Position numbers and translations under genes: made by a program. The notes under the pieces were generated by a model. That model saw only the letters and a program-made list of their open reading frames with translations. It ran no database searches and was not told the DNA's origin. Below are positions 21,098 through 64,000 of a stretch of 64,000 nt of DNA, in pieces; position 1 is the first letter of the stretch, and each line of letters opens with the position of its first letter. This DNA is from Paramacrobiotus metropolitanus (Eukaryota; Tardigrada; Eutardigrada; Parachela; Macrobiotidae). Location of the stretch: positions 186,001 to 250,000 of the forward strand of contig NW_026570302.1 in the NCBI RefSeq assembly GCF_019649055.1, read 5' to 3'.

Positions 21098-23664
21098 TCA
21101 GCGATCGAGAATAATATTCTTCAGTTTAAACAAGAAGTACAGTGCAATCGCCGACAGCTTCTCCAATTGTACATCCTTCAGACCGTCAACGCACCATTGC
21201 TTATTGCGGTGATGCGTGGATGGACGCGGGTCGGCGGACTGTGTTACACACAGTGCCTAAAACAGTCATGCAACTTGGATAACCATGAACATTATAAATA
21301 ATATTATATCGAGTATGTTTTCCTTTATATAGTATATACGTCTAGACTTTTAATAAGTATTGCATGTAAGTATAAACCGAGCACCGAAAACACGATTTAT
21401 AAAAAAAATTCACCGGTATATTACAGATTTATAACACGCACGATCCTTCACATTCAGCACCCGAAACCGCACTCACCCGACACACCCATCCCCGGTGAGC
21501 GTGGCTCTCATGAGCCCTTACGGACGCCAACCAAGCAGACCGAATATCCAGCTGTTTTTTGTTCGGCGCCGGCGTCCCTGTCGTCCCGGTCTCCAGGACA
21601 TCCCACACCGCGCAACCCACATCACCGCTCTGCGGCAACCGAACGTCGGGCATGCTAACCGACAGCCGAATCTCCTTCCTCTTGTCCACCTTCATATAAT
21701 CCAAATCGATAGAACAGTTGACCAGATGAACGGCATCACACGGCAGGTCACTGCATCCCGTAATAAAATCCACCAGGCGATAGTTCGGCGACGGAAACGG
21801 AGCATTGTTCTTCGCGTCAGCGCTGTCCTGATGCAAATAGCACCGGTCGTCCTCAGCATCCATGGTGTTGCTGAGCTGCAGCTGGAAGCGGATCCCCACG
21901 ACATGGATCGTTCGCAGTCTACTGCCTGTTTGATGCCCTGTATAGTGTATCATCTCCATCAGCTTTAGAAAATCTTCGGTACCCATCCACCGGCTTCGCC
22001 CGTCCACCACGATGTGCTGGGTGGATGGGCGGAGGCATTTGAAAATCGTTGCCGTCAGAAAATAATGCAGCTGGTTGCGCTTCGCGAGGTACTCGTGCTC
22101 CGGGGTAGGGTTGGTGATAAGGATGCAGGCCGTCAATACCGGTGATTCCAGAATACCGTTCCATGCAAAGCAGACGGTGCGCAATCCGGTCTGGGTCAGA
22201 GTGTCCAGATGAGAAAACACTTCCCCTAACACGGCTGACGAGAGCACTTTAACATTACCGATTTCCTTGCACTCCAGAGATCCAGTACGTATTGCGGCTG
22301 GCGCGGTAATGCCTCGTATATATGATGCCACTGCGATAAGACGATCAGCTACCATACCATTCTGAAAATGTTGATAGGATATAAAGCGGCAGAAACGGCA
22401 TAAGAATTAAGAAAACGCCATAAAGAAAAACGGCATAAGAATTTAACAAAGATACCGCATTTTACGAATTATACTAAATTAGTACTAAATTTTCGTAAGG
22501 CGTCGGGAGGGGACAATATGGCACAAGGACTACAGTATATTTCGGGCGAGGGGATGTGTACATTTTCGTTATAAATTGCTCCTCCAAAGCCATAGCGAAA
22601 GTGTATGTTTAGCGACGAAAACACAAGAAAACACTAAAGACGCTAACATTTCGCGAATGCTGCGCAAAAATCGTGCAAAAGAGATTTTGAAAAGTGAAAA
22701 CACGTCGTTCTTTAAAAGTTTAATCAGGTAACTGAGACACCGGGGGCAAGATTTTACGAGAGGACGAATTACTTGTAACTTGTAAGGGATAGGGGAGGGG
22801 GCTTTATTGCGGAGGGAGGAGAAGGGGGGGGGCATAAATTGACAAAATACGGTATTAAAAACATTTCTGTATCAGCACGCTTCCTTTGAGAACAATTTCC
22901 TGAGGGAAGAATGTGTCTGAGATTACCTCAAAGCAGTCCGTCTCTTTGTAATGACTTTGATGTCCATGTCGCCAAATGTACGGCACACGCCCGTCCACAA
23001 TGTCAAGGATGGAAAATCGTCCGACACCGTTATCCGTGTAACGATACGCTTTGCCCTTCAAGTGTTGGAGCAGTTGATCGACTCCGACATCATGACATTT
23101 TTTCGGTAACAACATACTAAACTTCTGGAAAATCCCGTCCGCAATCGGCTCCGGCCAAGCGGCCATGCCCTTTAACTGAAAGCCGCCACCATTCCCGCTG
23201 TCGACGTCTGCGGAGGGGGCTTCCCGGTCCACTATGGCCCACCATTTGGCCATGACCCTCCAACGCAGTCGCTGCAACGGAACCAGATCCATATGTTCCA
23301 TGTCGCCTTGCATCCATTGGGCCACGGCTACGCTGCTCGCCCCGTGACAAATCCCACGGTTCACATTGACGGCAACCGCGGGGAACCAGGCCCAGGGACC
23401 GGAGGGTGTCTCTCGCACCATTACTTCCAGGGGGATGCGCACATCGGGTGGGGTGTACGCATACGCATGGGCCAGTAGAAATTCATTCATCACGGAGTAG
23501 GCATTCTGGAAAATTCGGCCGAACGGGGTGAATTCGCGGCGCCGGTTGGGACAGAAGTCGATGAAGAGCCCGTTGTCAGCCACGTCCACCACCAAGCCGC
23601 TACGGAAGGTATCATCGTCACCCAAGACTTCGACGCGAGTGTTTTGCCAGTTGCCGTTAGACAT
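21098..23664 (-). CDS. array unit 1: Agenet/Tudor-like + F-box protein, intact
   Basis: Three exons, complement(join(21098..21256, 22361 down to 21477, 23664 down to 22927)), in phase 0, encode 593 residues. Exon 1 (residues 1-246) is the Tudor-like module: TRVEVLGDDDTFRSGLVVD, ADNGLFIDFCPN, then PLEVMVRETPSGPWAWFPAV and MDLVPLQRLRWR. Exon 2 (247-541) opens with an F-box, VLGEVFSHLDTLTQTGLRTV then CFAWNGILESPVL, followed by the family's conserved region (FLTATIFKCLRPSTQHIVV, DFITGCSDLPCDAVHLVNC). Exon 3 is the cap (QSADPRPST, QWCVDGLKDVQLEKLS). The start at 23664 is chosen because every unit begins at this place with M followed by about seven residues and then V-[DE]-V. The F-box should bind SKP1/CUL1; the substrate is unknown. 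The intron at 22362-22926 contains only unassigned sequence. Confidence 0.75.
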
Positions 23665-25212
23665 GGCTGCAAGCCTGGAACTAAAGAACATCCAGCCTCA
23701 GAACTTGTGAATATCCAATCGAAAAACTAAAGAAAATTTCTCCTGTTATCACCCTTCTGTAAGTAAATCCCCAGCCAAGAAGGGCTGACAGATTTAAATC
23801 TAGCGGTGAACACGAAACTTCTCACTTACAGCCTGTTTTCAGTCAAAACAAATGCTCATGACAGAAAACTTACTTATGTCTGCTTGTAATACAGTACTGT
23901 GGTGTAGTGTTGGGTAGTAAAAGTCCTCGCCAGTATACTTACTTTTACTATCTGCTTTTGGAAGTTTACTTATTTTTACTTACAATTTAAAATTTTTCGG
24001 GACTTTCACTTACTTTTACTTACTATTTCAATTTTCCCAAGGACATTTACTTACTAAATTAAAGTAAATTTACTAAATAAATGTAATTTAGCACTGAAAG
24101 TTTCGAATTACGTCAGTTTGAAAGCGCAACAAACTACTGAAAAGTAAAAATAGTGCAGATAAATTTCTCGTGAATTAATCGAGCTATAGCAGGTGCATAC
24201 TGAAAAGTACGTACTGTTGCTTTTGAGGGCGGCAGGCTGGCAGCCGACTAATGCGCACACTCACTTTACCTGCGAGTGGCGGTTCCTGATACGCCAATTT
24301 TACGTAACGCTGATAAAACGAATTAGTAAATAATTTAGTAAATGATTTTTATTTATTCAACGCTGAACCTTAATATTTACTTACTTTTTAAAATAGAGAG
24401 TGTCGACTTACAAGCAGAATGTCACAAGGAACCAAAGCTAATCGGCTCGATTTATCATAATGATATAATAAGGTGCAGTCTTTAATGAATGCGTTGCAAA
24501 ATAGCTACTGAGTACTCGTACAGTAGTGTTCAAAGCAGCTCAATTGGACCAGCTTAACTGACTGCTGCGCATACGTACACAAGACTAAGAGCAAGGCACT
24601 TCAATATCAGCTGCCACATCGTCGCTGTTCAGTGTTCAAGATTTCTGTTCCACTGAGCCATGCGCCGCTCCTGTGAATGGCGATGAGTCAGAGTGCTAGG
24701 TGCCCATGCGGCATTAGCGGGGAGATGTGAATTTGTGAAATCAAGATAAAAACCAAGAAGAAAGCTGTGGTAAAAAATATATGTCAAGTGTTAACAAATT
24801 TAAGGAGCATTGTGAACGGCGGCAGAAATGATTTCCACCCAAAGCGGACCGCGAGACACACTTTGTTAAGGTTCATTAAGCTAGAGTACTAAAATTTCCA
24901 TCCCGACTGCCCAAGTGGAAGATATTTGTAAAATTGTAATGCCCACCACTTTACAGGTTAAGTCAAACAATCACACATGGCACACATAACCAGTGACAAC
25001 TGACAATCAAAGAAGCTACAGTTACTGTACTGTACAGTTACTGTAAAACTACAGGTAATTCGGATCAGCAATCACCGCAACTTCGGTAAGAAATATTACT
25101 TCCCTAGCTATGGCAGAGTGAACAGCGGCAACATACAACACAATAAACACGTCAACAAAATATACTCGTAGAAATCAGAATACAGACAACGCTATGCATT
25201 GCAATACCGACG
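23665..25212. other. spacer between units 1 and 2, with a possible hAT-like remnant
   Basis: No coding segment. At 23912 the sequence TAGTGTTGGGTAGTAAAAG followed by TTACTTTTACTTAC-rich repeats resembles hAT transposon ends. Near 24940-24956, GCCCACCACTT is a partial inverted match. The pairing is imperfect and I found no clear 8-bp target duplication. Confidence 0.3.
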
Positions 25213-28200
25213 CTAAATATTCCATTCCTCGATAGAGTTCGCCAGGAGGATAAGAAAACGCAGCGTAATACGGGTCAGCTTGTCCAACTGCAGCTCTTGC
25301 AGTCCCTCCACGCACCATTTCTTCCCAGGGTAGTGCGACTGCGGCCGCGGATCCGATGACTGAGCTCCACAAAGTATCTGCAAAAGAAGGTGCTTCTTCA
25401 TAACCGTGCAAGAGGATTTTTCAGCTGCATCTCGTAGTTGTTCACCAGATCAGTCACGAGCGGGAACTTTTTAATGCACGGCATACTTCACAAAAAATTG
25501 TGACTTCGCCAGCTTCGTGCACTGCTGACCGTGAGTGTTTCTTAAAATTATTCAGCGAAAGCGGTTTTGATAAGAATAGCAAAGAGCTGCACTTACAGAC
25601 AAACACTTTATTTAAGCCACTGTGAATCCGTTTATGCGGTTCACGGTACATCCGTTTCTGAATTTTAAATTTTCATGCAAATAAACAAGAAGATTAAACG
25701 CGCTTCCTTGCTACTTAACAAAAGTCCGATGGTGAAGCATGGCTGCAAAATGTCCATATTGTTAATGCGGATGTAAGTACTGACGTACTGTATACTTTTT
25801 AAGCAACCATGTTGCGGAACTTGCGTCCAACTATTCTGACCATCTTACCAGTAGCCCAATATGACTGAAAATATTATCTGAAGCTGACCAGGCTATTTCT
25901 TATTTTGATTTTATTTTTCGCTCTGCGTTTTGATTAAATTAGGCCTGCGATCTGACCACGAAGCCGCAAAGTGATCTGGTAATTCTCGCTTCGGGTAATC
26001 GTAATCTTAACTGACTGGTGACCTTACATCCGTTTTCAACCTGAACAGCCGTGGAGCTCCCTCGAAGCGCTGAGTAAGTAATTCGAGTTGAGATGCTGTA
26101 AGAGCATCGGTTTATGGCGCTCCATGGGGCTTGGTGGATCGTTTAATCTGAAGACGATCCTCAACCTACATCATCTCACCTTGCACACTGCTTTCTCCCA
26201 CGCCAACCCCACTCGCGACGCTGCGTCTTTCTCCGAGATCACCCACGCTAAGAATTCAGACAATGTTCCCCGTTTCGCGTCACTAATCATCGGTAACCCC
26301 GCTTCCAGGACATTCCATATTGCATGCTCTAAACCATCGTCAACCATCAGCCGAACTGCAGGAATCCGGACAAACAGTCGACGAAGAGCTCTGTCAGGCG
26401 TTGCATTGACAAACAGGTCCGCCGATCCGCCGATCAATCGTATGGAATCGCACACAAATCCCCGAAAGATCGCAAGGAAATCCCGGATATGACCGGCATT
26501 AAGGCTACTGGGGACTGATTGGCTCCCGTCATCGTCATTATTCAGATGCAAGCCGCAGTCATTCTCCGCACGAAGGGCATAAACAAGATTAACTGGAATG
26601 AGCCAGCGGAAGCCCACAAGTGTCACCTCTTTCAATCGGATGTCGGAGTTGTTCTCCGCCACATGGCGTATCATATTCACCATTTTGAATAGCTCTTCGT
26701 CACCCACTCTCTGCCACCAGTCAACCACAACGAGGCTCTCGGTCGTGGAACGCAGACATTTGAAGATGGGCGCTGTCAGAAGATAATCCCGTCGTTCCGG
26801 ATCGTCACTGCTGTCAAAGCTCGTAATGACAATCGTAGTCGTCAGCAACGGTGAATCCAGAATACGATTCCATGTTGCACAGACAGCGCGTAAGCTTGTC
26901 CGCATCATTGTGTTCAGGTGGGGGAACACGTCCAGCCACAATTCCGGCGGCAGCGGCCCAAAGGCATCCGTGGTTTCGGAAATCTGGTCTGGCAGTTTTG
27001 AAAGGCCGATAATACGAGAAAACCATTCGGTTAACGGATGACGAAGCTTCCGAATTGGTTTCTATAAATCACAAGACAGGACTATAAATCACCAACCGGC
27101 GCTAAAACAAAAAATGTGCAACAGGAGCATCGAATGCGTATAAACTACGAGCCTGCCAGTGGCCCGCCATTTCGTCGGCGGAAATTCGCGAACAGACACG
27201 ATGTCGACCCGTCACACAGTCGAGCTAGCGTATTGCTACTCCCTAGATTTCCTAGATCTCCAAGTTATCTTAAGAGTTTTTTTCGGGTTTAGAATTTGCC
27301 TAGGTTTCTCAGTACTTTGTAGATTTCTTAAATATTTCTTCGATTTGGTAGTGTTCTTAGTTAGCTGGTTTTGATAGTTTACTGAGCCATAACGCTCGTG
27401 ACCGTCGATGTCGTGTTAGGGGACATAGTTTCGGTGGGCCAAATTTTCAGCACCAGGCTCCAACAGACAACTGCGCTCGTTAAACAATTTGCGTTAACAC
27501 GAAGCACCTACTCTTTTAACTGTACACTGTGCCGTCTGTGCGAAGTAGGTACTAACACGCATAAAGCTAAAACATGTATAAATTATAACAGTAATGTTTA
27601 CCGGATAATCTGGATATACTTCCTCTTCCTTCGGCGGCCCATAACCTCGCTCCAGATAATACAAGCTCCCATTCGAGACTTCCACAAGCGTAATGAACCG
27701 ACCATTCAGTTCGCATTCAGAGCGCAGCAGTTTGCGAAACTCCTTAATTGGTATCGAGGCAAGCTCATCCGGTACCTCGACGCTGCGCTTAACAAACGTC
27801 CATTTGCCCACGCGCTCGGCACCGATATACAGCCGATTCGGCATTATCTCCGAACGTGGCCGTCGGGTTTCAGTCCACCGTGTGCTCGGGATGGGCAAAC
27901 GAATACGCTTAACCGGAACGATATCAAAACGCACGAAATCGGTACCCCATCGGACCACTGCGGCATGAAACTGTCTGTACTGTTGAGCAGCACTGCGAGG
28001 CGGAATAACCATCTGCGCAGGAAACCAAGTCCATGGGCTTGAGGGACTCTCCCGCATCAAGACTTCCACGGTAGGGTGAGGTTCCTGCGATTCGGCCCAC
28101 ACAGCGGGCACGATGTCCTTGCTTAATGGATGTCGACGGTCCGAAAGGAAGACGCTGCTGTCGAAATGAAAGAAGCGGCGCCGTCCAGTGGGACAGAGAA

Positions 28201-28309
28201 AGTCAACGAAGAACCCGTTGTCAGCGACATCCACCACGCGCCCGTAGCGAACCAAGCCACCACCCACCACGACGTCAACGCTATTGCGTCGGTAGATTTC
28301 AGCAGTCAT
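25213..28309 (-). CDS. array unit 2: Agenet/Tudor-like + F-box protein, intact
   Basis: Three exons, complement(join(25213..25377, 26180..27061, 27602..28309)), all phase 0, encode 584 residues. Exon 1 (residues 1-236) carries NSVDVVVGGGLVRYGRVVD, NGFFVDFLCPTGRRRFF, VEVLMRESPSSPWTWFPA and a V-P-V-K-R-I-R block, then a small C-terminal subdomain (LVEVSNGSLYYLE). Exon 2 opens at the acceptor TTTATAG and encodes the F-box PLPPELWLDVFPHLN, RAVCATWNRIL, then FKCLRSTTESLVVV and a VWNVLEAGLPMISD-type end (here IWNVLEAGLP). Exon 3 has SHYPGKKWCVEGLQELQLDK. The F-to-cap intron (25378-26179) is long and empty. No disabling change is seen. Confidence 0.75.
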
Positions 28310-29322
28310 GACTGTTGAATGTAGAAAACTGAGAACAAGAAACTGAAGACAGCAGCGCGGAAGGCAACACCAATGAACGCTACGCTGGAGAAGATGAACC
28401 TGAAATTTTCTTCGTCTCGCTCCGGAAGTGAAACGACTGAAACTCCCAAGAAGTGAAACGACTGAAACTCCCAATCGACTGAAACAGCATCCGAAACAAA
28501 GTTGAGAACACTACTTACTACTTAGTATTAGTATAATTAATCGAAATTTGAAAAAACTCACAGTCGACCACAAATTCACAATCATTACTAGTAAGTAATT
28601 CATACATTGCTGAAAAATATCGTAACTGTGCACAGGGTGCGGTTGTAGTGTAGGTACGAATGCGAGACGGTTATTTCTTAAACAGAGTTCTACTTCTTAC
28701 TACTGTATAATTCTAGCAGCTGCCTGTCTGCAGAATTTGATGGGCGGTTGAGGTGGCGACAACGATATCCGGAGCTGTCAGGAAATTAAACGGTAATTGT
28801 ACAGGCGCATGCGCTGCAGCTATTGATCGAAAACTGTACGGTAATGGTACGGTACTTATGTCGCTGACTGACCTATAGCTAGTGAAGTAAAACGAAAGTA
28901 GCAGTAGTGCGGTCTCTCACTAACCTAAAGGGCTTTTTTTAACAGGCAGTAGTGGTAGCTTGGTCATTCACTGACGTGATTATGTGTATAATGGACAGTG
29001 AACGTTTTTCGGTCACCCACTATTCTAACGGGTTCTGTTATATGAATATGTTACATCCTGCACTGGTAAGTCAGATTGGTTATACCGCCACGTACAGGTA
29101 CAGGAAGTGTGCCGGGTTGAAACAACTTCAAAAATAAACAAAAGCAAAGAACAACATCATAAAACAAAACACAATAACTTCCGAAAAAAGGACAAAGCCA
29201 ATCTATAGCAGAGAGATTGCTCGTCGCAATATTCAACAATCTTCCCATGCCGATTGCGGACGCGTTATCTGTCCAATAGGCTTTCGTGTGTATTACGCGA
29301 ACCGTAACCATCTTTCTAGTCA
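28310..29322. other. spacer between units 2 and 3
   Basis: Contains the probable promoter of unit 2 and the 3' side of unit 3. No gene or repeat is recognised. Confidence 0.5.
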
Positions 29323-31565
29323 TCAATCATCATCGCTCTTCAAAAATTGATGAAAATAATCCGCCAGATCGATCAGGATGTCCAGCGCAATCGCAGACAG
29401 TTCACTCAGCTGGAGATCTTTCAGACCGTCAACGCACCACTCTTTGCCGCGGTAATGCGAGGATGGACGCGGGTCGGCTGACTGTGTCGCGCACAACGCC
29501 TACAAGGTAAAACCCAGATTTGACAGCCACCGTTTTCACAGCCAGCGCTACCGTTTCCGCATACAAAAACGTCATTTTGTCCCCGACCGAGGCTAGCGCC
29601 TACGATTCATGAGTTTGTGCGCAAACGCAATACGATTTGAAGAGAAAATTATTAGACGCAGATATTGCAGAACATAGCAAAACCGGTGACCCCACCTACC
29701 CTGCAAACCAGTCCCCGCTCCGCATCCAGGTTCTCCTTAGCAGTGACGCACGCCAACCACTCTCTTAGCATACGGTGCGTTTCCTCACAACGCTTCGGCG
29801 TGGATTTCTCCAGTGCTTCCCATGTCACGCTGCCCACATCGCCAATCAACGGCAGCCGAACCGCTGGCATCTCAAGCCACATCTGGATTTTTAACCACCC
29901 GTGTATCTTCGCATAAATCAGTTCCACGGTACAGTTAACTAGCTGAATGGCATCGCAGGGCAAATCGCCACAGCCTGCGATGAAATCGACAAGGCGATAG
30001 TTAGGCGAAGGAGCAGATGTACTTTTTTCCGCGTTATCACTGAGTCGATGCAGCGGACACTTATCATAGGAAAACTCATAATACTCCGCGTCCAGCGTGT
30101 TGCCGAACTGCAGTTCTAAGCGGAGCCCAACTAAATACATGGTTCGCAGTCGACTTCCAGTTTTCCTGCCAATGTAGTGTATCATCTCAGTCAGCTTCAG
30201 AAAATCGCCGGTATTCATCCACCCTTTGCGACCATCCACAACAATGTACTGTGTGGATTGGCGAAGGCATTTGAAAATAAGTAAAGCCAGAAAGTAATGC
30301 AGCTGCGTGCGATTAGCGGCATCATCTGTCTGACAGTTACTGTAAGGATTTGTGATAACGATAGAGGCCGTCAACTCAAGTGATTCCAAGATGTTGGTCC
30401 ATCCAGGACACACTCTACGTAATCCAGTTTGCGTCCTAATATCCAAATGGGAAAGCACTTCCAGCAACACAGAGGGCGTAAGCCAGCGGATATCATCGAA
30501 TTCCTTACGTTCCACAGAGAAATCACGTTCTTCGGTCATCAGCCCACGGATCTCTCGTACACGTGAGACTAACGCTTCATGGCATGCAGTGAGTTCGTAC
30601 TGGAAAATTCAAACCAATCTGGAAAACTGTTGTCAACAATAATCATAAACGGCAAAATAAGCATGAGAATGTTATCACTGCCCCATTTGAGCGAATTACT
30701 GAGGATTCGAAAGTTAAACCCTAGCTAACTGTTTTTGATAACACAAGTTTGCCCGGAGAAACGCCAATCGACAACGCATGGAATAGTTCTCACTTCTCAT
30801 ACAGTATTTCGCGGTTACCTCAAAGTGGGCATGGACATCTGGTTTCAGAGGCTCAGGCAGACGTGGCCAAATGTACAAAGCGTGTTGTCTCACTGCACCC
30901 ACGAACGAAACTAAACCGTAATCCAGCAATTTAATGCGAAACCCTTTGCCGTTAAAGTACCGGAGCACTTTGTCGATATCTACATCGCGGCAGTCTTCCG
31001 GAAACGGCAGTTTGAGCTTCTCGAATGTTCCTGGTTCGACTGGCTCAAACTGAGTGGCCAGTCTGCTCAAAAATCTGGAGTTACCGTTGTGCCGCTTGTT
31101 TGAACCCGAAGGCTGGACTGGAGCTCTTTGGCCAAAAGAGACCCTCCAATCGTTTGGCACTCTCCAACGCAGTCGCTCCAGCGGTACCACGTCCGTATGC
31201 GTCCCGTCCTGCACCCATTGCACAACTGCTACTCTGTATGCGTTGTGATGAATAAGGCGCGCCACATTGACGATTTCAGCTCGAAACCAAACCCAGGGAC
31301 CGGCGGGTGTTTCGGGCATCAGCACCTCCACGGGAATGGTCGTGCCGGGTTTGATGGAAGCGTACGCATCAGCCAGGTCCTTTTCCTTCAATGGTTTGAT
31401 ATTTAGGAAAATCCGGTCGAAAGGGATATACCGGCGTCGTTGGTCGGGACAAAAGAAATCGATGACGAGCCCATCTTTCGTCACGTCCACAACGCGTCCA
31501 GTACGAAACACATCATCGTCGCCCAAAACATCCACGCGCGTACGCCGACAAATGTTTCTGTACAT
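29323..31565 (-). CDS. array unit 3: Agenet/Tudor-like + F-box protein, intact
   Basis: Three exons, complement(join(29323..29499, 29700..30599, 30819..31565)), phase 0, encode 607 residues. Exon 1 (1-249): TRVDVLGDDDVFRTGRVVD, LVIDFFCPDQRRRYIPFD, VEVLMPETPAGPWVWFRA and DVVPLERLRWR. Exon 2 (250-549): F-box WLTPSVLLEVLSHLDIRTQT, RRVCPGWTNILES, then IFKCLRQSTQYIVVDG and DFIAGCGDLPCDAIQLVNC. Exon 3: SSHYRGKEWCVDGLKDLQL, with an acidic tail (KSDDD). Exon 2 begins at the second of two possible acceptors (30600/30601) because an in-frame stop precedes it. Exon 2 and the cap are closest to unit 1 (shared STQ-IVVDGR, ALCxTQSADPRPS), suggesting the two are recent duplicates. It is probably an SCF adaptor; the target is unknown. 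Confidence 0.75.
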
Positions 31566-33110
31566 CGCGGACGCTAAAAAGTATCCAGGCGTCAAACGTC
31601 TGATGGATAACCAACAATCGTTCAAAAAAGGGTAAATCAGTTACAGGTAGGTCGTAACGTCATAAAGTCCACGCTCTATTGTTACTGTATGACGAAGATG
31701 TCTTGCTAAACGGGATTATTCCGTGCAATTACATATTTTTTATCAGTCTGTAACTCTTTCACAGTCTCGCCATAACTTATCACTTCGCCAAGTCAGCCTT
31801 AACACTTGCAGTTGTCACCTATCAGTCGTCAATCAGCTGCAGACTGCCGTGATGCATAATACGGAAACTTACGAGAGTACGGAGACGTTGTTCACCTTTA
31901 GTTCGGAAAGCGCATAAAGCCCCGTGACACGATCAAGACAAACGCAAGTTATCCCGCATAAATACGAGTATGACGGAATGAAAAGACTTAATTCTTAATA
32001 CAGGAATTATTGGGAATACATATAATAATGTGCGCGTATGCGGAATGAAGAAAGCTGTATCGGCAATCTCACAGACTCTCACTTAACTAGAAGCGTGCAC
32101 AGTGGCAGTGCAGACTGCAAAGTAGGAGAAGGCCCCCCAGCAAGTCTGCTACAAATGCAGTCTGCTATTACTCAACTTGGACAACATCATGTTTTGCTTA
32201 CTGGCTACTGCTGATGCCAGCATCAGACGTGATCGGTTTTGCACGTACAAAAACACTTCGCCAGTAGTCATTTGTTTATGTCACTCTCTTATAGTGTGTT
32301 TTTTGTATGCCCCATTTCATATGGTGTACGCCTCATTTCACATAATGGTACATGGATGATCGGTGGCTCATATATTGCGGCCCTGCGGAATGCATAAAGG
32401 AACTAGTGAAAGTATGCAACGACTAGCTGGCAGTACAATTCCGTATCAGCCGTTTGACTTTGGAGAATGATAAGTGAGCGCACCTGCTACGCACACAGGT
32501 AGAATCAGCGTCATTTTAGCGCTTTTTTGGATCACATTAATTCTGAACAATATATTTCTTATTGGAAATTTCTTGAAGATATGTGTGTAAAAAACGTTAC
32601 CATAATATTGCCCAAGAAGATCATTTTATGGTATTAATTTCATTAAAACGATGATGTTTAGTATCTCAAAGGGAATGGCTCAATCCGACGGCGGCCCGAA
32701 CCGCCTTCGAAAGGTCTCTCGGCTATCTCCGACAATCGTTGGAATGTAATTTCGAAAAATCTAAATGCCGGGGCTTGGACCCATGCGCTCTATGCAACAG
32801 AAGCTATGTCGTGCCACTGACCAGGGTACATGTTCCGGGTCCAGAATCAGATAAATCACATTTTTTTTGCATTGTATATAACATAGTATACCATTGTACA
32901 TGCAAATACTGTAATTTAAAAATAGCTTCATCTGCAGAGGCTCAAAGGGGTGGCCAAACAAAATTAATCAGTACGTATTACACATGCACATACAGAGTAG
33001 TACCGTATTACAACGCACTAGCGAACAGACTGTTTCTATGAAACTAGTAAATCAGTACAGTTCCATGTTCTGCAGAAATGTACTAGACCAACATATCAGG
33101 ATTAATAAAA

Positions 33111-49104: not shown

Positions 49105-50211
49105 GGTTGAAAACGCTGGATAGAATAAGACTGAGGAGCTTTTAAAAGGATGCTTGAAAACGGGCCCAAAACAGCACAGCGCAGTAAAAGTTCAGATTTT
49201 CAGAGTACGCATTTCTGAGACTTGGATATCGAAGCGAAACCTCTGTCATGTATTATCGTTCACGCACTGGAAAAATCCCGGGAAAATTCTGGGTAATGGT
49301 ATTGTTACTGGTAGACAGTGGTGGTGTTCTTAGCTGGCAGTGGTAATGGAACGTTTTTGGTACTGGTTGAGAACTTGAGTGGTAAATATAGTGGTACTTG
49401 TAGCAGGTACCGTAATGGTGCTTATGGTAGTGTTACAAGTAATCCCAGCGCCACCTGCACCCTGATAAAAAGTTACTGAAAGTAAACCTGGTCGTGTGTT
49501 TTTGTTAAACGAGAAAAATTTATCAAACCGATAAAATATAACAACTGGAAAGAAGAAAACAAACAGTTCGGCACTTGCTCCAAGCCCTCACAAAAGCTTA
49601 AGTACATTCTCAGCGGCTCCTTGTTTTTGCACTAACTTTTCCCGCTGATTTAAATGACCGCTGGTCAACGCTTGTAATGCTCATTTGAATGAATTATGTG
49701 GTGGTAAAGGAAGTTCATCGGTTTTTCCAAAGTTCCACGTACATTTTTATTCTACTGAGCGATGTTATTATGAAATAGCAGTTACAACGCCATTCATTTA
49801 ACATTTCCGATATCCGATAACCCATGCCGAAAGCCTTGCAATTTGGGCTGCAGTCTTCCATATTTTAAAAAAACATGGAAAAGGCCCTACTGTACTTCCG
49901 CTTCTTGCCGAACCTGCCGTGCCTGGCGCAAGATACTTTATCTGGATTAAACGAGATTTTACTGCTATAAACGCGTCACACAGTGTGGCTAGTTATGTTA
50001 CTGACATAAACTAGCTAGCGCTTAATCGGTTTTTGCTTTAAATAAAAGATCGCTATTTAAATATTAGTTGTAATTGAAAAATGGAAGAAGAAATAGACAT
50101 TCAGAGAACTGACAGTATTCCCAAAAATTAAATATATACATTCTTAACAACGACCTCTTATCGACGCGGCCCACGCAGAATAGCCCATAAGATCAGATCC
50201 TTGATGAAGCA
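49105..50211. other. spacer between units 6 and 7 with GGTA/GTGG-rich low-complexity DNA
   Basis: No gene. From about 49290 to 49450 the sequence is an irregular run of TGGTA, GTGGT and TACTGG repeats, a degenerate simple-sequence tract. Confidence 0.5.
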
Positions 50212-52127: not shown

Positions 52128-52689
52128 GGTTGAGGGTGAGCGCGGAATGAACAATATTGTTTGGGTTCGGCGCAAATGGAGCACAGTGTGCACAAATGAG
52201 TACGAACCCGGAACCTCCAAGACACTAATCGCTCTTCCTTTTAAGGCTGCAATGGTTAGGCCAAATTCAAAGGAACAAAAATCGATGTGAAATAAAGGAA
52301 AGTACAGATAGTTGGCTATAAACCTACCGCAACGAAGTTTGAAATGCAAAACTACTCGCGCTTAGCACTGTCTCATTGCACTTGTCAACACTGCTTACAT
52401 TTAGTCTGGGACACAAAATTTTAAATTTCGAACATCTTTCGAAAGAAATGAATATTACAGCGAACGGATGCTTGGATGAGCTAATCTGCTATCCGAGCAA
52501 AGAGCTCATGCACAAGTGGGTGTACCCAGAAGTACCAGAAGCGAATATGACAGCAAGTTCGTACCACTTTGGGATTTACCAAGAGAAACTGAATTCAGAT
52601 GGAATTTTTCGAATTGCAAGCACGGATTCGTACAAAACTATCTCAAAAACCGGTTAAAACTGGAACAGAGAAATAAGAGAAGTTGAAAA
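52128..52689. other. upstream region of unit 7
   Basis: Probable promoter of unit 7. A 93-codon open frame on + (52376-52657) matches nothing known to me and is left unannotated. Confidence 0.45.
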
Positions 52690-53187: not shown

Positions 53188-53685
53188 ATTTACGGTATCA
53201 CTCCGCGCTCGCCAACTGCGATGAGGTAAGGTAAGTATCTTTTTGCGTAGGTTTAAACGGCAAAATGTCACCTTACGATGTGTTGTAAGTTTTGCAATCT
53301 TAATAATCGACCTTGCCTTTCTTTTGTAACATGTTGAAGTTCGCGTTATCTTATGTAAATGCATAATAAAGGAATTATACACATGCCTGAAATAAGAAAC
53401 TCCGAAGTTACAAGTTATCACAAATACGCGAAGCAATTCCACAAATTAATACGTATAAGCTGTTGCTACATAAAAGATGCTACAGATAATATCAACATAA
53501 TGTGCCGGCGCTATAATATAGCGTCATTCTCGTTCATTGCAAGCAATACACTTGTCTGTGGCTTAATCAACTAGATGCTTTAAACATTGATGTCGTAAAA
53601 CTTCCGCCTGCGTTTTCGTTTCGGTTTTTGGTCGAGAGACTGATCCAGCACGAACTCTTCTGCGTCCACCGCCAGCTGCACGAGG
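53188..53685. repeat. 498-bp tandem duplication, second copy
   Basis: Second copy of the unit above. It overlaps the 3' end of the unit 8 cap exon, so this copy is the one joined to the rest of the exon. Confidence 0.9.
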
Positions 53686-55692
53686 AAATGCAGTGCAATG
53701 CGTGACAACTTCTCCACCTGCAGCTCCTTCAGCCCGTCCACGCACCACTTCTTTCCCCGGTAATGCAGCGCCAAACGTGGATCCGCTGTTTGTGCCGCGC
53801 ATAGAATCTGGAAAACTAGCCCGCGTTAATAAACTTCCGAAGTCGAACATAAACATTTGAGTCGCTGCTCGTATTACGTAACAGTTGACACGTATAAATC
53901 CAACAGCAGATCATTCGCCGCTGCTTTTCGACTTTTAGACACTAGGGTAAGCTGTATTAGCGCGCTATCGAGTGCGGTTACCTAATAACTGTTGCAGCTG
54001 CTTCCGATGCAAATTTTCCTGACTGGTTAACTATTATTTTTATTTTTAAAATCTACAGTCGCTGCATTTATAATCTAACCGTGTTAGTGCGTGCGCTAAA
54101 AAAACATGAAAAACTTACGAACTTCGCCACATCTCACCTTACAAGCTAATTTGCAGTGGGTCATTCGGAGCCGAGAATCTTCGCTAAGTGAATAAGCGAT
54201 CCATGCCAAAAACTTGCTCAAAGTGAGGAGTTGATCATCACTCAGCACTAATAATCCCGCTTCCAACACTTCCCATACCGTGCTGGCGAAATTCTTACTG
54301 ATCAGCAGTGCTGCCCTGGGTACGTTGATAACCAGTTCCGCTTTGCTCAAACGGTCAAAGTACAATTTGACGCGGCACTCGATGAAATGGAGCGTATCAC
54401 ACGGTAGACCGCGGCACAATGCAATGAAATCCTTCAGAGGGACACTGGCGATGCTGGTTTCCTGTGCTTCCATTGCTGCCGCATTGGGATGATGCAAAGC
54501 GCAATCATCCCCAATTATCTTCTCGTCACTCTCCGTCAAGTCGAGGTTACATGTAAAGCGCACCAGACAGAACGCAGTCAAATGGATGTCAGAGTTCTGC
54601 GCTACAAATTGCATTATGGAAGATACTTGGAGAAACTCGCTCATGCACTCGCTGCGCTGCCGGGTCAGGATGATGCGCCGCGTGGATGGTCGTAAGCACT
54701 TGAAGACAGGCGACACCACGATGTAGTTGTCCCGCTTGCGGTTGAGCTCATGAAAACTTCCCGTAATTATATCAGTAGTTAGCAAAGGCGACTGCAGTAT
54801 GGCATCCCAAGCGGCGCACACCGGGCGCAGTGCGTTCTGCGTCAGCGTGTCCAGATGGGAGAACACTTCAGCCACAACTCCACCGGCAGCACACGGATAC
54901 CATTCATATCACCCAACTTCGCGGTCGATGAGCTGTATGTCTTAGCAGTCCGCAAGATGCGAGGAAGACATTCAATGAACGTTTCATGGAATTCTTTAAT
55001 TTCCTCCTACAAAACATTACATAAATTAAAAGACAACTGCAGCAAAACTAACCAAAATCTTACAGTGAGCTCGTCTCGTGTCTCGGATTCACTGCCATAA
55101 CGACGCCTAATATACCACAAAATTCCGTCCTTGACCTCCAGGAAAGAGACTTCCTGCTCGTCCAGTTCTTGACAATCGTACCATTCGCCACTGCGAATGT
55201 CCAATTTCCTGCGCAATTCATGAGCCGATACCGTGTGGAAGCGTTTTGGCAGCTGCAGGATGCGTTTGATAAAGGAAGTTCGGTCGACGCGCTCCGCATG
55301 AAGAACCGAGTTGTTAATTGTAGTCCACCAAGTCATCGGGGACTCTGCGGCGGAGACGTTCAACGGAGACGACTTCTGTACGAATAAAACCGTTGCCCCA
55401 CTTTACTACGGCTGCATCATCCCACCATCCGAGTTTCCTGCCGCCGCGTCATCTGGAACGATGCCGTCTCGCGTATCTGTCAACGATGCCGTCTGCATAG
55501 TAACGTCTTGTACTCGTTGCCAAAAATACATTGCTGCCGAAGGGGAAAAACCGGCATCGTTCGGGGCTACAGGCTACAGTGGAAATCCACAAAGAACCCA
55601 TTGTCAGCCAAATCCACCACACGTCCGTACTGAACCAGGCCGTCAGCGCTTACAATATCCACGCTGTTTGCTTGGTGGATTCCGCTCCACAT
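53580..55692 (-). pseudogene. array unit 8: decayed Agenet/Tudor-like + F-box gene with intact basic-tailed cap
   Basis: Cap exon 53580-53807, F-box exon 54138-55006, Tudor-like exon 55064-55692. Exon 1 starts well (MWSGIHQANSVDIVSADG, LADNGFFVDF) but meets a stop near 55575, where the frame shifts to CRFFPFGSNVFL; the PVEVL...W-x-W-F segment is deleted before AAVVKWGNGF. Exon 2 lacks one base within the F-box at 54873-54877, between VLPVELWL and EVFSHLDTLTQN. Its remainder is open (FKCLRPSTRRIILT, WEVLEAGLLVLSDDQL). The cap (LHYRGKKWCVDGLKELQVEK) carries a tail unique in the array, KPKRKRRRK, resembling a nuclear-localisation signal. Three lesions make loss of function likely. Confidence 0.75.
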
Positions 55693-56461
55693 AGTTTCAG
55701 ATTCGCTGGGACAGAATAAGAATAGGTAGTTTAACCAGAAAGTAAAATAGCAGTGCGATGCAATAAATATTATTAATTCTTGGGTAGCAACAAAATTTCG
55801 TTTTATGTGCTGAGTGATCTGGGCATGACATCCACAACGCGCACTAAACCATGCGGAAGCTAATTACTGTACCTCAAAATGCTATGGTGAAATAAAAAGA
55901 CAAGATTTTTGCGCAGTCTTTACTTGGTTAACGCCCACACAGCCGAGTGCCGAGAAACGCTCACTTTACGTGGTTGTGTCCAACGTCTGTTTTTATCGGG
56001 CAAGAAGCAAGTTATTCAGATACTCTCTGATTTGACTATTTGAGTAGGAGCGGCTCCCATTGGTTGTTGTACATTAAAACGCTGGTCAAATGGGAAGCTT
56101 GGTGGTCGCATGGCGGAGTTTGATGTACCACTTAAAGAAAAATAAAAAACGTACTCGTACTCAAGTACGAGTGCAATTATACGATTTACGACCATCTTGT
56201 GCAGCTCCTGATTTTATTATTGCTCTTCTTTAATCATTGCTTTACGATACGGTGTACAGTGAACTGTAAAGGTTTTACGCAGCTAGTTTTCTTCTTGTAA
56301 CGAACATTAGCTTTGGCTACCAATTGTTCGCTCGATTTGTGTTACTACTCGTATCGTTGATTTGGATTCCGCACATTTGTTTTCCACTGTGCACTGTAGT
56401 CCGTTGTGTTCGTCCTCCGCAGCAACTGCGCTTCCAGTTTTGTGGTCTAACGTCTTGTACT
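55693..56461. promoter_or_regulatory. head-to-head intergenic region between units 8 and 9
   Basis: Units 8 (-) and 9 (+) start 770 bases apart and diverge, so this stretch must hold both promoters or one bidirectional promoter. An in-frame leader upstream of the unit 9 ATG (56324-56461) lacks family similarity and is taken as 5' UTR. No specific element is recognised. Confidence 0.45.
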
Positions 56462-58391
56462 ATGTTCGACTCGTACAGGAAGCACCGTAACGCTGTGTAC
56501 ATTCTGGGCAGCGATCGGCGGATGCGCTATGGAAAAGTAGTGGACGTGGCAGATAACGGTCTCTTCGTCGATCTGCTCTGTCCAAACCGAGGACGTGAAT
56601 TTGTGCCTTTCGACAGCGTCTTCTCTCCCCGTACCACAAGTATACACGATACGGAGTTTTTTCTTGAACAAGAGCAGGTCATCGTCGCGGTGGAGATCTT
56701 GGTGCCGGAGACGCCATCGGGTCCGTGGATTTGGGTGCCGGGTGAAATGCGCTACGTGCGACGCAGTTGGCCTCATGCAGTGTGCGGAGGGGCCGTTGTC
56801 CACTGGCTGAGTCCGGACGCCGGGGTGTCGTACACCGACATGGTGTCTGCGAAACGCATTCGACCGCCTTGCGATGTGGCAGGTTATCTGCGGTTGGCTG
56901 AGTGCTCTAAAGCGGTGGATGAAGATGACGGCTACTGTTTCGATCCTGACAAACACCCTTTGTTTCGGGATCGCATCCGTCAGGGAAATTCATCCGGCGC
57001 GTTTATGACGCGCAGTGCGGACCTAGGCGAGAAATTCCGCTCGCTGACCACGGCAGAAGCCGCGTCGCTCATTAAACGGTTGAAAGGCTACGATATCGAC
57101 TTCTACTCTCCCGTTTTCGTGGTGGACCTCAAGGACGGGAAGTTGAAATATGTTTACCAGCTCCTTTGTAAAGAGATTTCCGATCAAAGATACACAGAGC
57201 AGATGATGGTAAGAGATGCTTCTTTACGGCAAAAGTTTTTCGGCAAAAGTAATAGGTGTTGAACGGTTTCAGAAAGCTATTGGCAATTTTCATCAGAGGT
57301 TGGTCGGCATCGTCAAGTATCTGACCGAGGAGACCCCGCGAATCGACGATGAGGTGGCGCTACCGGTGGAACTGTGGCAGGAGGTGTTTTCTCACCTGAA
57401 CACCGTAACGCAGACGATGTTGGGGCCCGTGTGTACAACGTGGAACCAGATCATGAATGCCCCGGTGCTGCGTTACACGATAGTTGTCCGCAACGACGAT
57501 TACTCCACAAGGGATTACGATTTTCTCAGTTTGGCGATGGTATACCAGCGCTTACGCGCCGGCACAAATCGCGTTATCATAACGAGCCCGAATGATCGCA
57601 GTTGGACGCTGGTGGACGGTGCGATGATGGTGGGCGACATGATGCATTATGTGGCTGCTCCAACCGGCCTGCGACTGCGGACCGTTCATCTGCGCCGCGT
57701 CAAACTGCAGTTGATGATTTACGGCGATGTCCCTAGCGCGTATATTACTGATCCACACCGTCATCACGCGTTTGTTGACACGCCCAAGCCAAGTACAGCG
57801 GAATCTTCACAATCCAGCTACCTGTGGATGGAGGAGTTCATTGCCGGGTGCCGCAGTCTGCCGTGTGACGCCATCCACATCGCGAATTGCCCCGTTACCT
57901 TGGTGTGCAGCTTTTTCCTGGAACCGGAGCACTGGAGAACGGCGGTCAAGTTTAAGAAGTTTGATGTTGAGATTAAAACCGGAATTCGTAGCGCGCGATT
58001 GCCGCTTGGCGGTGATTTCGGTTGCACATTGTGGGATGCTTTGGAAGCGGCACTGCCGTTTCCCGACGTGCAGGAGCTCCAAAATCTGCAGCAAAGGTTG
58101 GAAGAGCGCGGGAAAGAAACGGAGAACCAGAGAACAGCCGTCTGCAAGGTACAATTGCCAGTTGCAATGAGCTAAACCCTTTCGTTGTGTACGGCTTTGA
58201 CGGCAGTGTAAAATGTTTTTCTGCAGATGTTATGTGCGGTGCAGTCCTGCGATCCGCGTCCAACGACGCACTATCGCGGGAAGAACTGGTGCGTGGACGG
58301 CCTGGGAGATTTGCAGTTGGACAAATTGTCGCGCACGACTCTACACTTTCTCGTTGAAGTGCAGAAGAAAACGGTTCGGGAAAGATGGTGA
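56462..58391 (+). CDS. array unit 9: Agenet/Tudor-like + F-box protein, intact, plus strand
   Basis: Three exons, 56462-57208, 57273-58148 and 58227-58391, phase 0, encode 595 residues; introns are 64 and 78 bases. Residues 1-249: AVYILGSDRRMRYGKVVDV, ADNGLFVDLLCPNRGREFV, VEILVPETPSGPWIWVPGEM and MVSAKRIRPP. Residues 250-541: F-box at about 279-325 (ALPVELWQEVFSHLNTVTQ, GPVCTTWNQIMNAPVL), then YQRLRAGTNRVIIT, FIAGCRSLPCDAIHIANC and WDALEAALPFPDVQELQ. Residues 542-595: the cap, TTHYRGKNWCVDGLGDLQLD. The ATG at 56462 matches the start position of all other units. This is the cleanest unit and the best guide to exon borders. It is likely an SCF adaptor with a Tudor-type reader; the substrate is unknown. 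Confidence 0.82.
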
Positions 58392-58779
58392 CGTATGCGA
58401 TGACAGCACAATTTTTCTCCATATGTTGTCATGGGATGCTAGATTGTTTTTGTCAGGTTTTAGTTCTTTTTGATATCGAAAGTAAAGAATTAACTAGTTT
58501 GCATTTACTCCCCATTTTTATCTGATTCACTTTTTTTTCTTACAGTATATTATGTCTGTTTAGTTAACTAATCGCTATTCTGAGGGCCTGTCGTTTTGAT
58601 ATGGAGCCACACAACACATTTTCTGCTGGTTTTTCTAATAAATCAATCACTTATTAAATGCTACAACATTGTTACATAACTCAAAGTGCCGTAAACTTCT
58701 ACGAAACCATCAGCATAACCCGTTTCCGTTTCCACCTTCAACAGTTTTCTTAGCAGTTACAGTACACTGCGGTGTGTGA
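58392..58779. other. spacer between units 9 and 10
   Basis: Contains the 3' UTR of unit 9. The first third of the Tudor-like module expected for unit 10 is not found here in any frame. Confidence 0.5.
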
Positions 58780-61040
58780 TTTGGCCGACTGTGTGTTCAT
58801 AACACCGCCTACCTAACTTCCGATTCGCTGGCTGATGATGGGTTCTTCGTGGATCTGCGATGCCCCGCTGGACGACGCCGATTCTTCCCTTTCGACAGCA
58901 ATGTCTTCTTGACAATGACAATCAGCCACCTGTTCGGGATGCACACGGCTGAAATGTATGCCGCACAACAAGAGCTTTTTCCCGTGGAGGTGTTGATGCG
59001 CGAGACCCTGTCCAGTCCATGGAAGTGGATTCCGGCGGAAATGATCAATTTGGCGCGTGGCAGGGGGCATGAGTGGTACGAGGTCGCCGTGGTGAAATGG
59101 GGTGACCATCTGGCACGCACGGATATCGTTCCTGTCGACCGTATCCGCTTACGAATCCCGGAGACGTGGTGGAGCAAACATCAGCACCATGGAGGAAATG
59201 ATAGCTATCCTTTAATGGGCTCCATTCAGGGTGCGGCGAAACGCGTTGGAAAAGGGTTCATTTGTGATGAGCAAGATAAAGTGGGAGAAGGACTGTCCAA
59301 TTTCCGCCCAAGAACTGCAAAGAACACTGCAGACTACCCCGAATACTTCAAGAAATTCAACGAGCGTGAAATTGTTTTCCTGGAGATCAAAGATGGATTT
59401 TTGTGGTATCTTGAGCGCCGCGTCAAGGCCTTCATGGTACAAGACCGCGAAGAAACACCCGCTGTAAGTTCTGCCTCTATTTTCGCATTATGAATTTGCG
59501 TATGGGTCTCCAGTTGAGACGCGATGAAAAAATTGATTACATGATAATTTTTATTATTGTACAACTGTTATTAGTTTTTTATTTTGTATATGTTTTTTAT
59601 GCTCATGTGCTTATATGCGTACATCAATAAAAAATTATCAAGTTTGATAATGCAGAACAGCGCCGAGAATACCGTGCTTGTGGTGTCCGGTACGCGAATC
59701 CATATTGTGAAGTTCTCAAATCCGATAATCGTCGCAGTACTCTTCTACCTGCACTATTGTTGTTTAAAATTTCGGCGGTTTTTTTGCAGCAAGAGGCGGA
59801 AGCCGTGCCTCGTATGGCCCCTACATATCTTCCTGACCTCATGAAAAATTCCAGCCCGCCTCCCGCGGACTTGGACATTCTGGACGGCAGCCGTGTCCTG
59901 CCGATGGAATTGTGGCTGGAAGTGTTTTCCCATCTGGACACGTTAACGCAGAACAAACTGCGCAGGGTGTGCTCAGCATGGGATGCCCTTCTGCAGTCCC
60001 CTCTGCTGACGGCCAACGTAGTTACGGGATTTTCCGCAATGAGCGATATTGAGCGGCGCGATTACAATGTGACGTCTCCCGTATTCAAATGCCTGCGACC
60101 ATCTACTCGCCGCATCCTTCTTGTTAGTCGACCGAAAGATGGCATTCGAATGGCTGAGTTCTACAAGGTGATGGACATGATACGGTGTGTTCGGGAGAAC
60201 TCTCCTGGAGTTCTAACGGTAACGTTCTATCTGGTGCGGTATGAATGGCATTTCCGTTTGGTGGACTTGACCATGAACGACCGGTTGCCATGGTGTGATT
60301 GCACGTTGCATCATCCTCAAGTGGAAGTGGACCAGGAACCCGACGGGGATCAGTGCGGCAATGCCTTGGATGATTTTATTGCGACATGCCGACGTCTGCC
60401 GTGCGCTGCGATCCAGCTGAGCCAATGCCGTTTTGGATTGACGGTCGATGGGACGCTTAGTTGTCTGGCTATTAACATTCGCGGTGCGCGCCTGACAGTG
60501 GATGACGAATTCGCCAGCACGGTGCGGGAAGCCTTCGAAGCGAGCTTGCCGATACCGAGTGAGAAGCAACTGCATGATTTGATGACATCGTTGGACCGGA
60601 TCGCTGATCCACATAAATGCGAGGATCCTAAGTTTCGACGGAAGTACGAGAGAACGGTTTGCAAGGTACTAGTAGGCTGCTAAATTCCGCGATGTTCTCA
60701 CTTTTCACAATTCTCGCGTGAATTGAGAAGATCCCAAAACGGTGTTACTCATCGCAAAATGTTTCGTTTTTCTAGATGTACCGTACCGTCGTACCTTATA
60801 CTATCTGTTATCAGTTCGAAATATGTCAAATATGCTTTATCTTTCCAGCTTTTGTGTGCAACGCAGACAGCTGATCCGCGCTCGTCGCTGCATTACCGCG
60901 GACGAAAGTGGTGTGTGGATGGACTCGGGCGACTGCAGGTGGAGAAGCTGTCACGTATTACGCTGCACTTTCTTATCCAACTGGCGAAAAACGTCGACGA
61001 TTTCATAGCCAATCATCCGTTCCTTTGCTGCCAGGAGTGA
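58780..61040 (+). pseudogene. array unit 10: 5'-truncated Agenet/Tudor-like + F-box gene
   Basis: Exon 1 is open to its donor at 59463 (LADDGFFVDLRCPAGRRRFF, VEVLMRETLSSPWKWIPAEM, DIVPVDRIRLRIPETWW), but the N-terminal part with N-S-V-D-V and R-Y-G-R-V-V is missing. The frame goes back to a stop at 58777 with no ATG between it and the conserved part. Exon 2 (59790-60665, 876 bases, same length as in unit 9) is intact: VLPMELWLEVFSHLDTLTQN, RRVCSAWDALLQSPLL, FKCLRPSTRRILLV, TSLDRIADPHKCEDP. Exon 3 (60849-61040) is intact: SSLHYRGRKWCVDGLGRLQV. Either a 5' truncation killed it, an upstream non-homologous exon supplies a start, or translation begins at a later ATG (58915) without the first Tudor strands. 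Confidence 0.65.
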
Positions 61041-62678: not shown

Positions 62679-64000
62679 TTAGTAGTATAATCTAATCTTA
62701 TATCCCCTTAGAATTTCGGGCCCGAATCTGATCGGTTCCAGAGACTCCTTCAAGTCCGCCACCAGCTGAATGAGGAAATGCAGTGCAGTGCGCGACAAAT
62801 CCTGCAGCCGCAAACCCTCCAGTCCATCCACACACCAAATCTTCCCGCGGTAATACAACGAAGGACGGGGATCAGCTGTCTGTGTCGCACATAGGATCTG
62901 GAAAATTAAATCTATTTTTAGGTGTTTTCGGAATTTGGTTCAAAATGTTGACCGACATTTTATGGTGCATATGAAAACAAATGTACCGTTCTATCAGTTC
63001 ACGAATACTGCCGGATCTAACCAAATTGCCCAGAGCGTATTAGCGTACTATAATTGCAGATTTTATCGAAAGGTAATAATATTATTGACTGCAGTTTCAA
63101 CTTTCAGTAGCACTGTAATTTTTCTTATGGCACGTGTTTACAAACTGACTTTGACCGCTAAAACTTGAACGTTGAACTCTCCTCCATTATTTTCATAGTT
63201 TCGATAAGTGACTTTATATTCTTGCTAAGCCTACACTGCTACTAGCTTCCTCGAAGCGCAGACTAAGCAATTCAAATTGTGGTACTCTGTAGCAGCTTTA
63301 TTTTAAAGCCAGCAAAACATCCATATCTTTCGCAGCACCTCACCTTGCCTGCTAATCGGGGAAATATCACGCGGAACCGAGCTGCTTCAGGTCATACCGC
63401 GTATCGAAAACCCCAGCCACAAATCTGCTGAGTGCATGCATTTGCTCATCACTCGGTACCGGCAAACCCGCTTCCAACACTTCCCACACTGTACTCGCGA
63501 AATGCCCGTTTATGTTCAATGACGCTCCGGACATGTTGATAATCAGGCGAGAAAAGTTATCCAGACAGTCGACGTACAAATCCGCATTGCATCCGTAAAA
63601 CTGGATCGTGTCACAAGGAAGACGGGAGCATACGGCAGTGAAATCCCGGAGAAAAATGCTGTCTAGACTGGTCTCGCGTACCTCGCATTTCGCCGCGTTC
63701 GGATGATGCAGCGCACACTCGTCTCTGTCCATCATGTGGCTACTCAGGCAGAAATGGCATGGTACGCGCACTAGACAGAGTGCTGCCAAGGGGATGCCGG
63801 TGGTGCTCTGCGCCACGTGCTGCATTATGCCGATCACTTTGAAAAGGTCACCTACCCATTCCTCACGCAGCGAGGTCAGAATGATACGGCGCGTAGATGG
63901 TCGTAAACATCTGAAGATTGGAGATGTCAGAAGATAATCGTCCAGCTCAGAACTCTGCTCATCAAGGCTGCCCAGAACTAGGTTAGCTGTCAGCAAAGGT
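62679..64000 (-). CDS. array unit 11: F-box protein gene, partial at the window end
   Basis: The cap exon is 62679-62897 (PSLYYRGKIWCVDGLEGLRL, with a long tail). The F-box exon ends at a donor at 63344 (CAAG-GTGAGG) and runs off the window at 64000, so the F-box itself and the Tudor-like exon are not seen. Visible parts: FRCLRPSTRRIILTS, FTAVCSRLPCDTIQFYGC and WEVLEAGLPVPSDEQM. The main frame meets a stop at 63367, 23 bases short of the donor, while another frame (RFRVIFPRLAGK) reaches it. Either a one-base frameshift occurred near the exon end or this unit ends early and skips the cap. It is closest to unit 8 (both have CALHHPNAA). Confidence 0.6.

Follow-up and report, generated by a model that had tools for sequence, protein, structure and literature searches.

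The 64,000-nucleotide window of the Paramacrobiotus metropolitanus genome analyzed here (contig NW_026570302.1; C82:186001-250000, with unit coordinates below given in window positions) holds, between 21.1 and 64 kb, a tandem array of 11 units made of a tandem-Tudor-like exon, an F-box exon, and a short exon with the motif WCVDGL. The units were first seen as repeated exon pairs among stop-to-stop frames and were then aligned. The array is probably part of a very large family of predicted adaptors of Skp1-Cul1-F-box (SCF) ubiquitin ligases, in which a constant docking module of the type found in FMRP would be combined with a variable substrate end.

The count of eleven units with recurrent exons, made earlier in a sequence-only reading, was confirmed. 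Its recurrent third exon was recovered in 11 window copies by tblastn with one exon as query (E values from 6e-42 to 1.4e-16, with no other match below 0.95). By profile, the F-box exon is found in 10 units, one of them truncated at the window end (63370-63999, minus strand), and the tandem-Tudor-like exon 1 in nine (A, B, C, E, F, G, H, I, and J); at 46.4-46.9 kb the F-box exon is an antisense trace only, seen by eye. All three exons are open in units A, B, C, E, and I. Unit F has a stop within exon 1 and a frame change in its F-box exon, unit G has a frame change within its F-box exon, exon 1 of unit H is fragmented, unit J has a first Tudor domain (Tudor 1) without its first strand, the 46-kb unit is fragmentary, and unit K runs out of the window. 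The features are as follows, with the evidence for each in brackets.

21113..21253, minus: unit A exon 3, WCVDGL (tblastn; intron 2 phase 0 at 21476-21257)
21432..22406, minus: unit A F-box exon (alignment, profile)
22858..23697, minus: unit A exon 1, tandem-Tudor-like, M at 23664 (frames, alignment, profile)
25222..25377, minus: unit B exon 3 (tblastn; intron 2 phase 0 at 26179-25378)
26174..27061, minus: unit B F-box exon (F-box-like, PF12937, 28.0 bits against a cut-off of 24.3; profile)
27497..28510, minus: unit B exon 1, M at 28309 (alignment, profile)
29335..29496, minus: unit C exon 3 (tblastn; intron 2 phase 0 at 29699-29500)
29655..30608, minus: unit C F-box exon (F-box 21.7 bits against a cut-off of 20.5; profile)
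30717..31640, minus: unit C exon 1, M at 31565 (alignment, profile)
34739..34888, minus: unit E exon 3 (tblastn)
35649..36605, minus: unit E F-box exon frame (F-box, PF00646, 29.4 bits against a cut-off of 20.5)
36598..37377, minus: unit E exon 1, to the phase-0 donor gct/GTAAGT (alignment, intron fit)
38635..39513, minus: second exon of a second-subfamily gene, F-box-exon homologue (VCALW...LL), no Pfam match (hhalign)
41794..42690, minus: exon 1 of a second-subfamily member (C82:227866-228669, E 7.9e-53, 42% identity to L035)
45936..46091, minus: exon 3 of the fragmentary 46-kb unit (tblastn)
47120..47272, minus: unit F exon 3 (tblastn; intron 2 phase 0)
47322..48421, minus: unit F F-box exon, frame change near its end (profile)
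48310..49191, minus: unit F exon 1, two pieces with a stop codon between them (frames, profile)
50245..50385, minus: unit G exon 3 (tblastn)
50415..51415, minus: unit G F-box exon, two frames (profile)
51306..52361, minus: unit G exon 1, M at 52127 (alignment, profile)
53634..53807, minus: unit H exon 3 (tblastn; intron 2 phase 0 at 54137-53808)
54099..54908, minus: unit H F-box exon (profile)
55010..55863, minus: unit H exon 1, fragments (profile)
56462..57208, plus: unit I exon 1, to the donor atg/GTAAGA (intron fits)
57213..58172, plus: unit I F-box exon frame, acceptor at 57272 or 57296 and end about 58148 (Pfam F-box over cut-off, intron fit)
58227..58373, plus: unit I exon 3, matched part (tblastn)
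58780..59490, plus: unit J exon 1, without the first strand of Tudor 1 (alignment, profile)
59631..60680, plus: unit J F-box exon (alignment, profile)
60849..61037, plus: unit J exon 3 (tblastn)
62745..62897, minus: unit K exon 3 (tblastn)
63370..63999, minus: unit K F-box exon, truncated at the window end (profile)

At 52690-53683, a 495-base unit stands in two tandem copies with 96% matches, a recent duplication that overlaps the start of the unit H exon 3 match.

Profile comparisons support exon 1 as a predicted tandem Tudor module of the FMRP type. A profile (A4) of 28 tandem modules of the exon-1 core, seven from the window and 21 from elsewhere in the genome, retrieves from all PDB sequences uL24m (E 0.002), FXR1 (0.0067), FXR2 (0.010), more uL24m records (0.018), and FMRP (0.022-0.082), and the FXR and FMRP matches span the whole module with the domains in order. 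By hhalign, A4 matches the genome's own FMRP alone with a probability of 95.8%, and own plus human FMRP with a score of 51.4, where 150 column shuffles average 11.9 and reach 19.0 at most (27 of the 28 rows, L009 being left out); with the halves crossed, scores are at chance, reached by 28 and 61 of 150 shuffles. A further alignment, A8, leaves out L006, L009, and L011. The order of the two N-terminal Tudor domains of FMRP/FXR proteins, which the sequence-only reading had made out in exon 1, is thus borne out over the whole module, and the profile search which it had proposed, where a lack of Tudor similarity was to count against it, returned FXR and FMRP tandem Tudors. Among single sequences, the related exon L027 reaches 30.5 bits for Tudor_FRX1 (PF18336; cut-off 25.9) and also matches the family profile, and L043, an exon-1 member with an F-box exon, has Tudor_FRX1 as its best Pfam match (19.3 bits). 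The name Agenet, used in the same reading, did not hold up: Agenet (PF05641) was rejected as the specific family, all Pfam Agenet matches being under the cut-off of 27 bits (14.0-15.6 bits in unit E and 23.5 bits at best genome-wide), and five of the 28 members match it at E ≤ 1 (best E 0.016).

The positions conserved in the family can be set beside those with a known role in FXR1, where the pocket is formed by Y95, W97, V66, and E104, an inter-domain lock by E6, R47, E65, and R112, and an interface contact by W78 (PMC2970552). Residues were mapped by alignment, with a numbering offset counted from the presumed FXR1 start. In A4 numbering, W93 is present in all 28 rows, W117 and D125 in 26 each, R133 in 27, and an acidic residue at 80 in all 28. 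At the pocket places the family has W in place of Y95 in 26 of 28 rows, an acidic residue (D or E) at E104 in 27, and V at V66 in 23; at the lock places it has an acidic residue at both E6 (24 of 28) and E65 (all 28), and R at R112 (27 of 28); and the contact W78 is W in all 28. Seven places of the second Tudor domain (Tudor 2) are at least 90% conserved (L82, W93, P95, W117, D125, R131, and R133), and four of these seven are places named for FXR. The FXR1 W97 place does not fall on a tryptophan under this numbering, and at the Y95 place the genome's own FMRP shows, by eye, an I. That gene, on contig C5, has Tudor_FRX1, KH0, two KH_1 stretches, and, by eye, an RGG box. There is a hint that the part of exon 1 after Tudor 2 may have KH0 ancestry, in that a stretch of 22 columns there is similar to the beginning of FMRP KH0, with a score of 19.3 where 150 shuffles reach 16.2 at most; KH0 (KH_9) was matched elsewhere in the genome in the FMRP gene alone, this post-Tudor stretch has no PDB match, and the family exons scanned have no KH match that would correspond to KH1 or KH2.

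F-box proteins bring substrates to Skp1-Cul1, and the F-box which the sequence-only reading had placed in the second exon is recognized by Pfam in four units: PF00646 exceeds its cut-off of 20.5 bits in units E (29.4 bits), C, and I, and unit B passes PF12937. Across the family, PF00646 matches 26 of 28 F-box exons at E ≤ 0.1; at the same threshold, no FTH or FBA2 domain follows the F-box in any of the 28 members. Skp1 is matched at only four places in the genome; it is thus the adaptors that appear to have expanded.

All genome-wide family counts are lower bounds. With unit E exon 1 as query there are at least 142 matches (142 listed of 834 candidates) on 37 contigs, with no stop within the match in 126 of the 142 listed and stops in 16; the WCVDGL exon has at least 150 matches (150 listed of 754 candidates), and the F-box likewise at least 150 (150 listed of 1080). 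The modules are found together well beyond the window. In a first set of 20 loci selected through exon 1 (eight because a fusion was suspected), 18 carry an F-box exon downstream in the same orientation, and in a second set, selected likewise, all 19 do; L014 and L016 show no F-box exon inside the fetched stretch, and L014 has a listed F-box 2.46 kb away. In the reverse direction, we took every tenth of the 150 listed F-box matches (n = 15), and 13 have a tandem-Tudor-like frame, whole or in part, on the same strand at most 3.2 kb upstream, which makes the family matter for tardigrade annotation. Twelve of these frames match at E 1e-7 or better and that of L073 is weak (E 8e-4); L068, L073, and L076 show Tudor 2 onward only, and L077 is split over two frames. 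No tandem-Tudor-like frame was found within 3.2 kb upstream of L074 and L075. As a control, the same searches match none of 909 frames, which were drawn from the left side of the window and from the loci in reversed form. Between the two lists, 22 of the 150 F-box matches have a listed exon-1 match at most 4 kb upstream, four have one downstream, and three on the other strand, a low overlap that follows from the exon-1 list holding 142 of 834 candidates. Exon 1 of L046 (C35:52200-54300) and of L045 (C195:8200-10300) are 99% identical in protein, with a dS (synonymous divergence) of 0.054, as from a recent duplication or an uncollapsed haplotype.

The remnant which the sequence-only reading had set beside its eleven units is a different matter. 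The pair at 42690-41794 and 39513-38635 was rejected as a remnant, since both exons are open and match a second large subfamily. A probe for this subfamily gives at least 124 rows, or at least 120 exons (four being split in two), among 752 candidates, including window 41794-42690, and the listed exons of the two subfamilies share no place. Its second exon is homologous to the F-box exon by hhalign (score 48.9 for five sequences, where 60 shuffles give 20.2 at most), and the Pfam F-box was not recognized in the second exon of the two members scanned.

We infer that splicing joins the three exons, Tudor, F-box, and WCVDGL, in a single mRNA, and where splice sites are clear this joining is well supported. 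A scan for frame-keeping introns of the form GT[AG]AG..AG, 35-160 nucleotides long, between exon 1 and the F-box exon finds phase-0 fits in three of nine window units (E, G, and I) and in eight of 19 loci outside the window (L005, L007, L008, L011, L012, L013, L019, and L022), with a phase-2 fit only in L004 and no fit in the remaining units and loci. Another donor score gives unit I in phase 0 again, a 71-nucleotide phase-0 fit in unit F that ranks under phase-2 fits, and weak fits only, in non-zero phases, in units C and G. For intron 2, phase-0 fits are found in five of nine units (A, B, C, F, and H) and by eye in unit I; none was obtained for units E, G, and J. L007 and L008 each hold both the Tudor and the F-box module in a single open frame, 564 and 575 amino acids long respectively.

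In the copies tested, the Tudor exon is constrained, and the F-box/C-terminal exon evolves about twice as fast. Among five copies on contig C35, exon 1 has a ratio of nonsynonymous to synonymous divergence (dN/dS) of 0.26 over 10 pairs and the F-box exon one of 0.49 over nine pairs (one of ten being left out at an identity of 55% or less), the pairs not being independent; one pair on C267 gives 0.28 and 0.57. Windows with dN/dS above 1 (1.05, 1.19, and 1.79) rest on few changes. The description of the family as fast-evolving therefore holds for the F-box/C-terminal exon (0.49-0.57) and not for the reader module (0.26-0.28). From these results we infer a function as follows. Each complete protein would consist of an FMRP/FXR-type tandem Tudor, an F-box, and a C-terminal region ending in the conserved WCVDGL cap. 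The F-box would bind Skp1/Cul1, and the conserved tandem Tudor would dock the ligase on a shared partner class, either methylated proteins or RNA-protein particles, much as may be the case for the Tudors of FMRP and FXR; substrates could then be chosen by the variable region that follows the F-box, and tandem duplication would create new specificities. A bolder version, which we regard as speculative and unlikely, is that in the tardigrade an FMRP-type tandem Tudor has become the constant arm shared by hundreds of F-box adaptors: the ligase would be brought to messenger ribonucleoprotein particles in translation or stress granules, or to methyl-marked proteins, while a diversifying arm would recognize targets that change, viral or selfish-element proteins for instance. 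This would amount to a variable, germline-encoded, ubiquitin-based surveillance at RNA particles.

Several results weigh against the docking-adaptor reading. In the A4 search uL24m scores slightly above FXR1, as nothing else does; the window's own exon-1 sequences have no Pfam match over cut-off; phmmer with unit E exon 1 alone finds no match in PDB; and a 10-row profile of the whole exon 1 returns uL24m and HscB only from PDB, with no FXR. No F-box was seen next to L027, the exon with the Tudor_FRX1 match over cut-off. The lock residue R47 of FXR is replaced in the family, by F in 24 of 28 rows. Intron fits are missing at many loci, and L007 and L008 retain intron-like GT..AG sites (63 and 69 nucleotides, frame-neutral), so that they are not proof of an intronless gene; their candidacy as intronless copies proving fusion was rejected because these sites flank a frame-neutral stretch. 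Finally, several units in the window are broken. The assembly was built from Nanopore and Illumina reads (PMC8277472), and some of these lesions may thus be errors rather than real.

The same data bear on other explanations. The tandem Tudor could be the substrate reader itself, the adaptors degrading methyl-marked proteins or FMRP-bound complexes with the C-terminal region as an accessory. The near-invariant pocket places of Tudor 2 speak for this, as does the binding of trimethyl-lysine peptides by the FXR1 and FXR2 tandem Tudors (dissociation constants of about 0.45-0.7 mM, with nuclear magnetic resonance and docking placing it in Tudor 2; PMC2970552). However, these affinities are weak, a reader conserved over hundreds of copies would give them all one class of substrate, and the diversifying exon is the other one, so that this alternative is possible but doubtful. 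The family could also have grown by birth-and-death drift, with duplication of little adaptive meaning and most copies mattering little, as the tandem clusters and broken units of the window and the stops in 16 of 142 exon-1 matches would suggest, and as genomic drift has been proposed for plant F-box genes (PMC3030570). We think this unlikely, given that the other 126 listed matches have no stop within the match and that the close pairs tested have a dN/dS below 1 for either exon. Some Caenorhabditis F-box genes are antidotes or toxins in selfish elements. Members of the tardigrade family could play such parts in genetic conflict, as the many recent copies would allow, and toxin-antidote elements are reported in C. 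tropicalis (PMC12680543); the probability of this appears very low. That the three exons belong to separate genes and only duplicate as a block, for which the many missing intron fits might speak, is hardly credible in view of the phase-0 fits where resolved, the constant order and strand at 37 of the 39 loci selected through exon 1, and the two single open frames, L007 and L008, across both modules.

The surroundings of the array differ from it in composition, with a G+C content (in 4-kb steps) of 0.43-0.49 inside the array (20001-64000) and of 0.38-0.43 to its left (1-20000). On the left, a 387-amino-acid frame at 10613-11776 (minus) has what we take to be the look of a Harbinger-type transposase and adjoins a frame at 9388-9918 (plus), presumably Myb/MADF-like, so that a DNA transposon perhaps lies there. 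Frames with repeated NLVIYD motifs at 5936-6439 and 7823-8215 (both minus) presumably resemble mannose-binding B-lectin proteins, and several frames at 17017-19508 (plus) show, by eye, immunoglobulin-like cysteine/tryptophan patterns.

Compared with known systems, the family resembles FMRP, FXR1, and FXR2 in the order and length of the two Tudor domains and in the pocket and most lock places, and differs in that the exons scanned have no KH1/KH2 match, an F-box exon follows instead, and KH0 is only hinted at. UHRF1 is of the RING type and is not known to have an F-box, which sets it apart from the tardigrade family by description. It is alike in having a tandem Tudor in a ubiquitin ligase, in an arrangement resembling that of FXR (PMC2970552). 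SCF-Fbxo4 also links an F-box to fragile X proteins; there, however, FXR1 is the substrate of the F-box protein (PMC5688124), whereas in the tardigrade family an FXR-like module precedes the F-box. The Caenorhabditis FTH/FBA2 F-box families are large and lineage-specific, with dN/dS mostly below 1 and less constrained, faster C-terminal regions (PMC8665587), and the tardigrade family is likewise a large lineage-specific F-box family with a faster C-terminal part; unlike them, the 28 members scanned have no FTH/FBA2 match, and the available part of PMC8665587 does not mention Tudor. The Caenorhabditis A2 F-box genes also acquired an N-terminal domain, but this is a helix-turn-helix derived from a mariner transposase, not a tandem Tudor (PMC12062965). 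Searches of the open-licence PMC literature, including PMC11191345 and PMC12062965, turned up no description of a tardigrade F-box or Tudor-F-box family. This is a lineage-expanded F-box family with a module combination undescribed in the literature searched, and F-box expansion itself is of a known kind. Nematodes and plants are known to have large F-box expansions, in which the partner domains are different ones. A family this large, built in a tardigrade on a tandem Tudor of the fragile-X type, would mean that a ubiquitin-ligase repertoire was reached there by a route of its own, and it raises the testable question of whether FMRP-type Tudors can serve as a delivery address for protein degradation.

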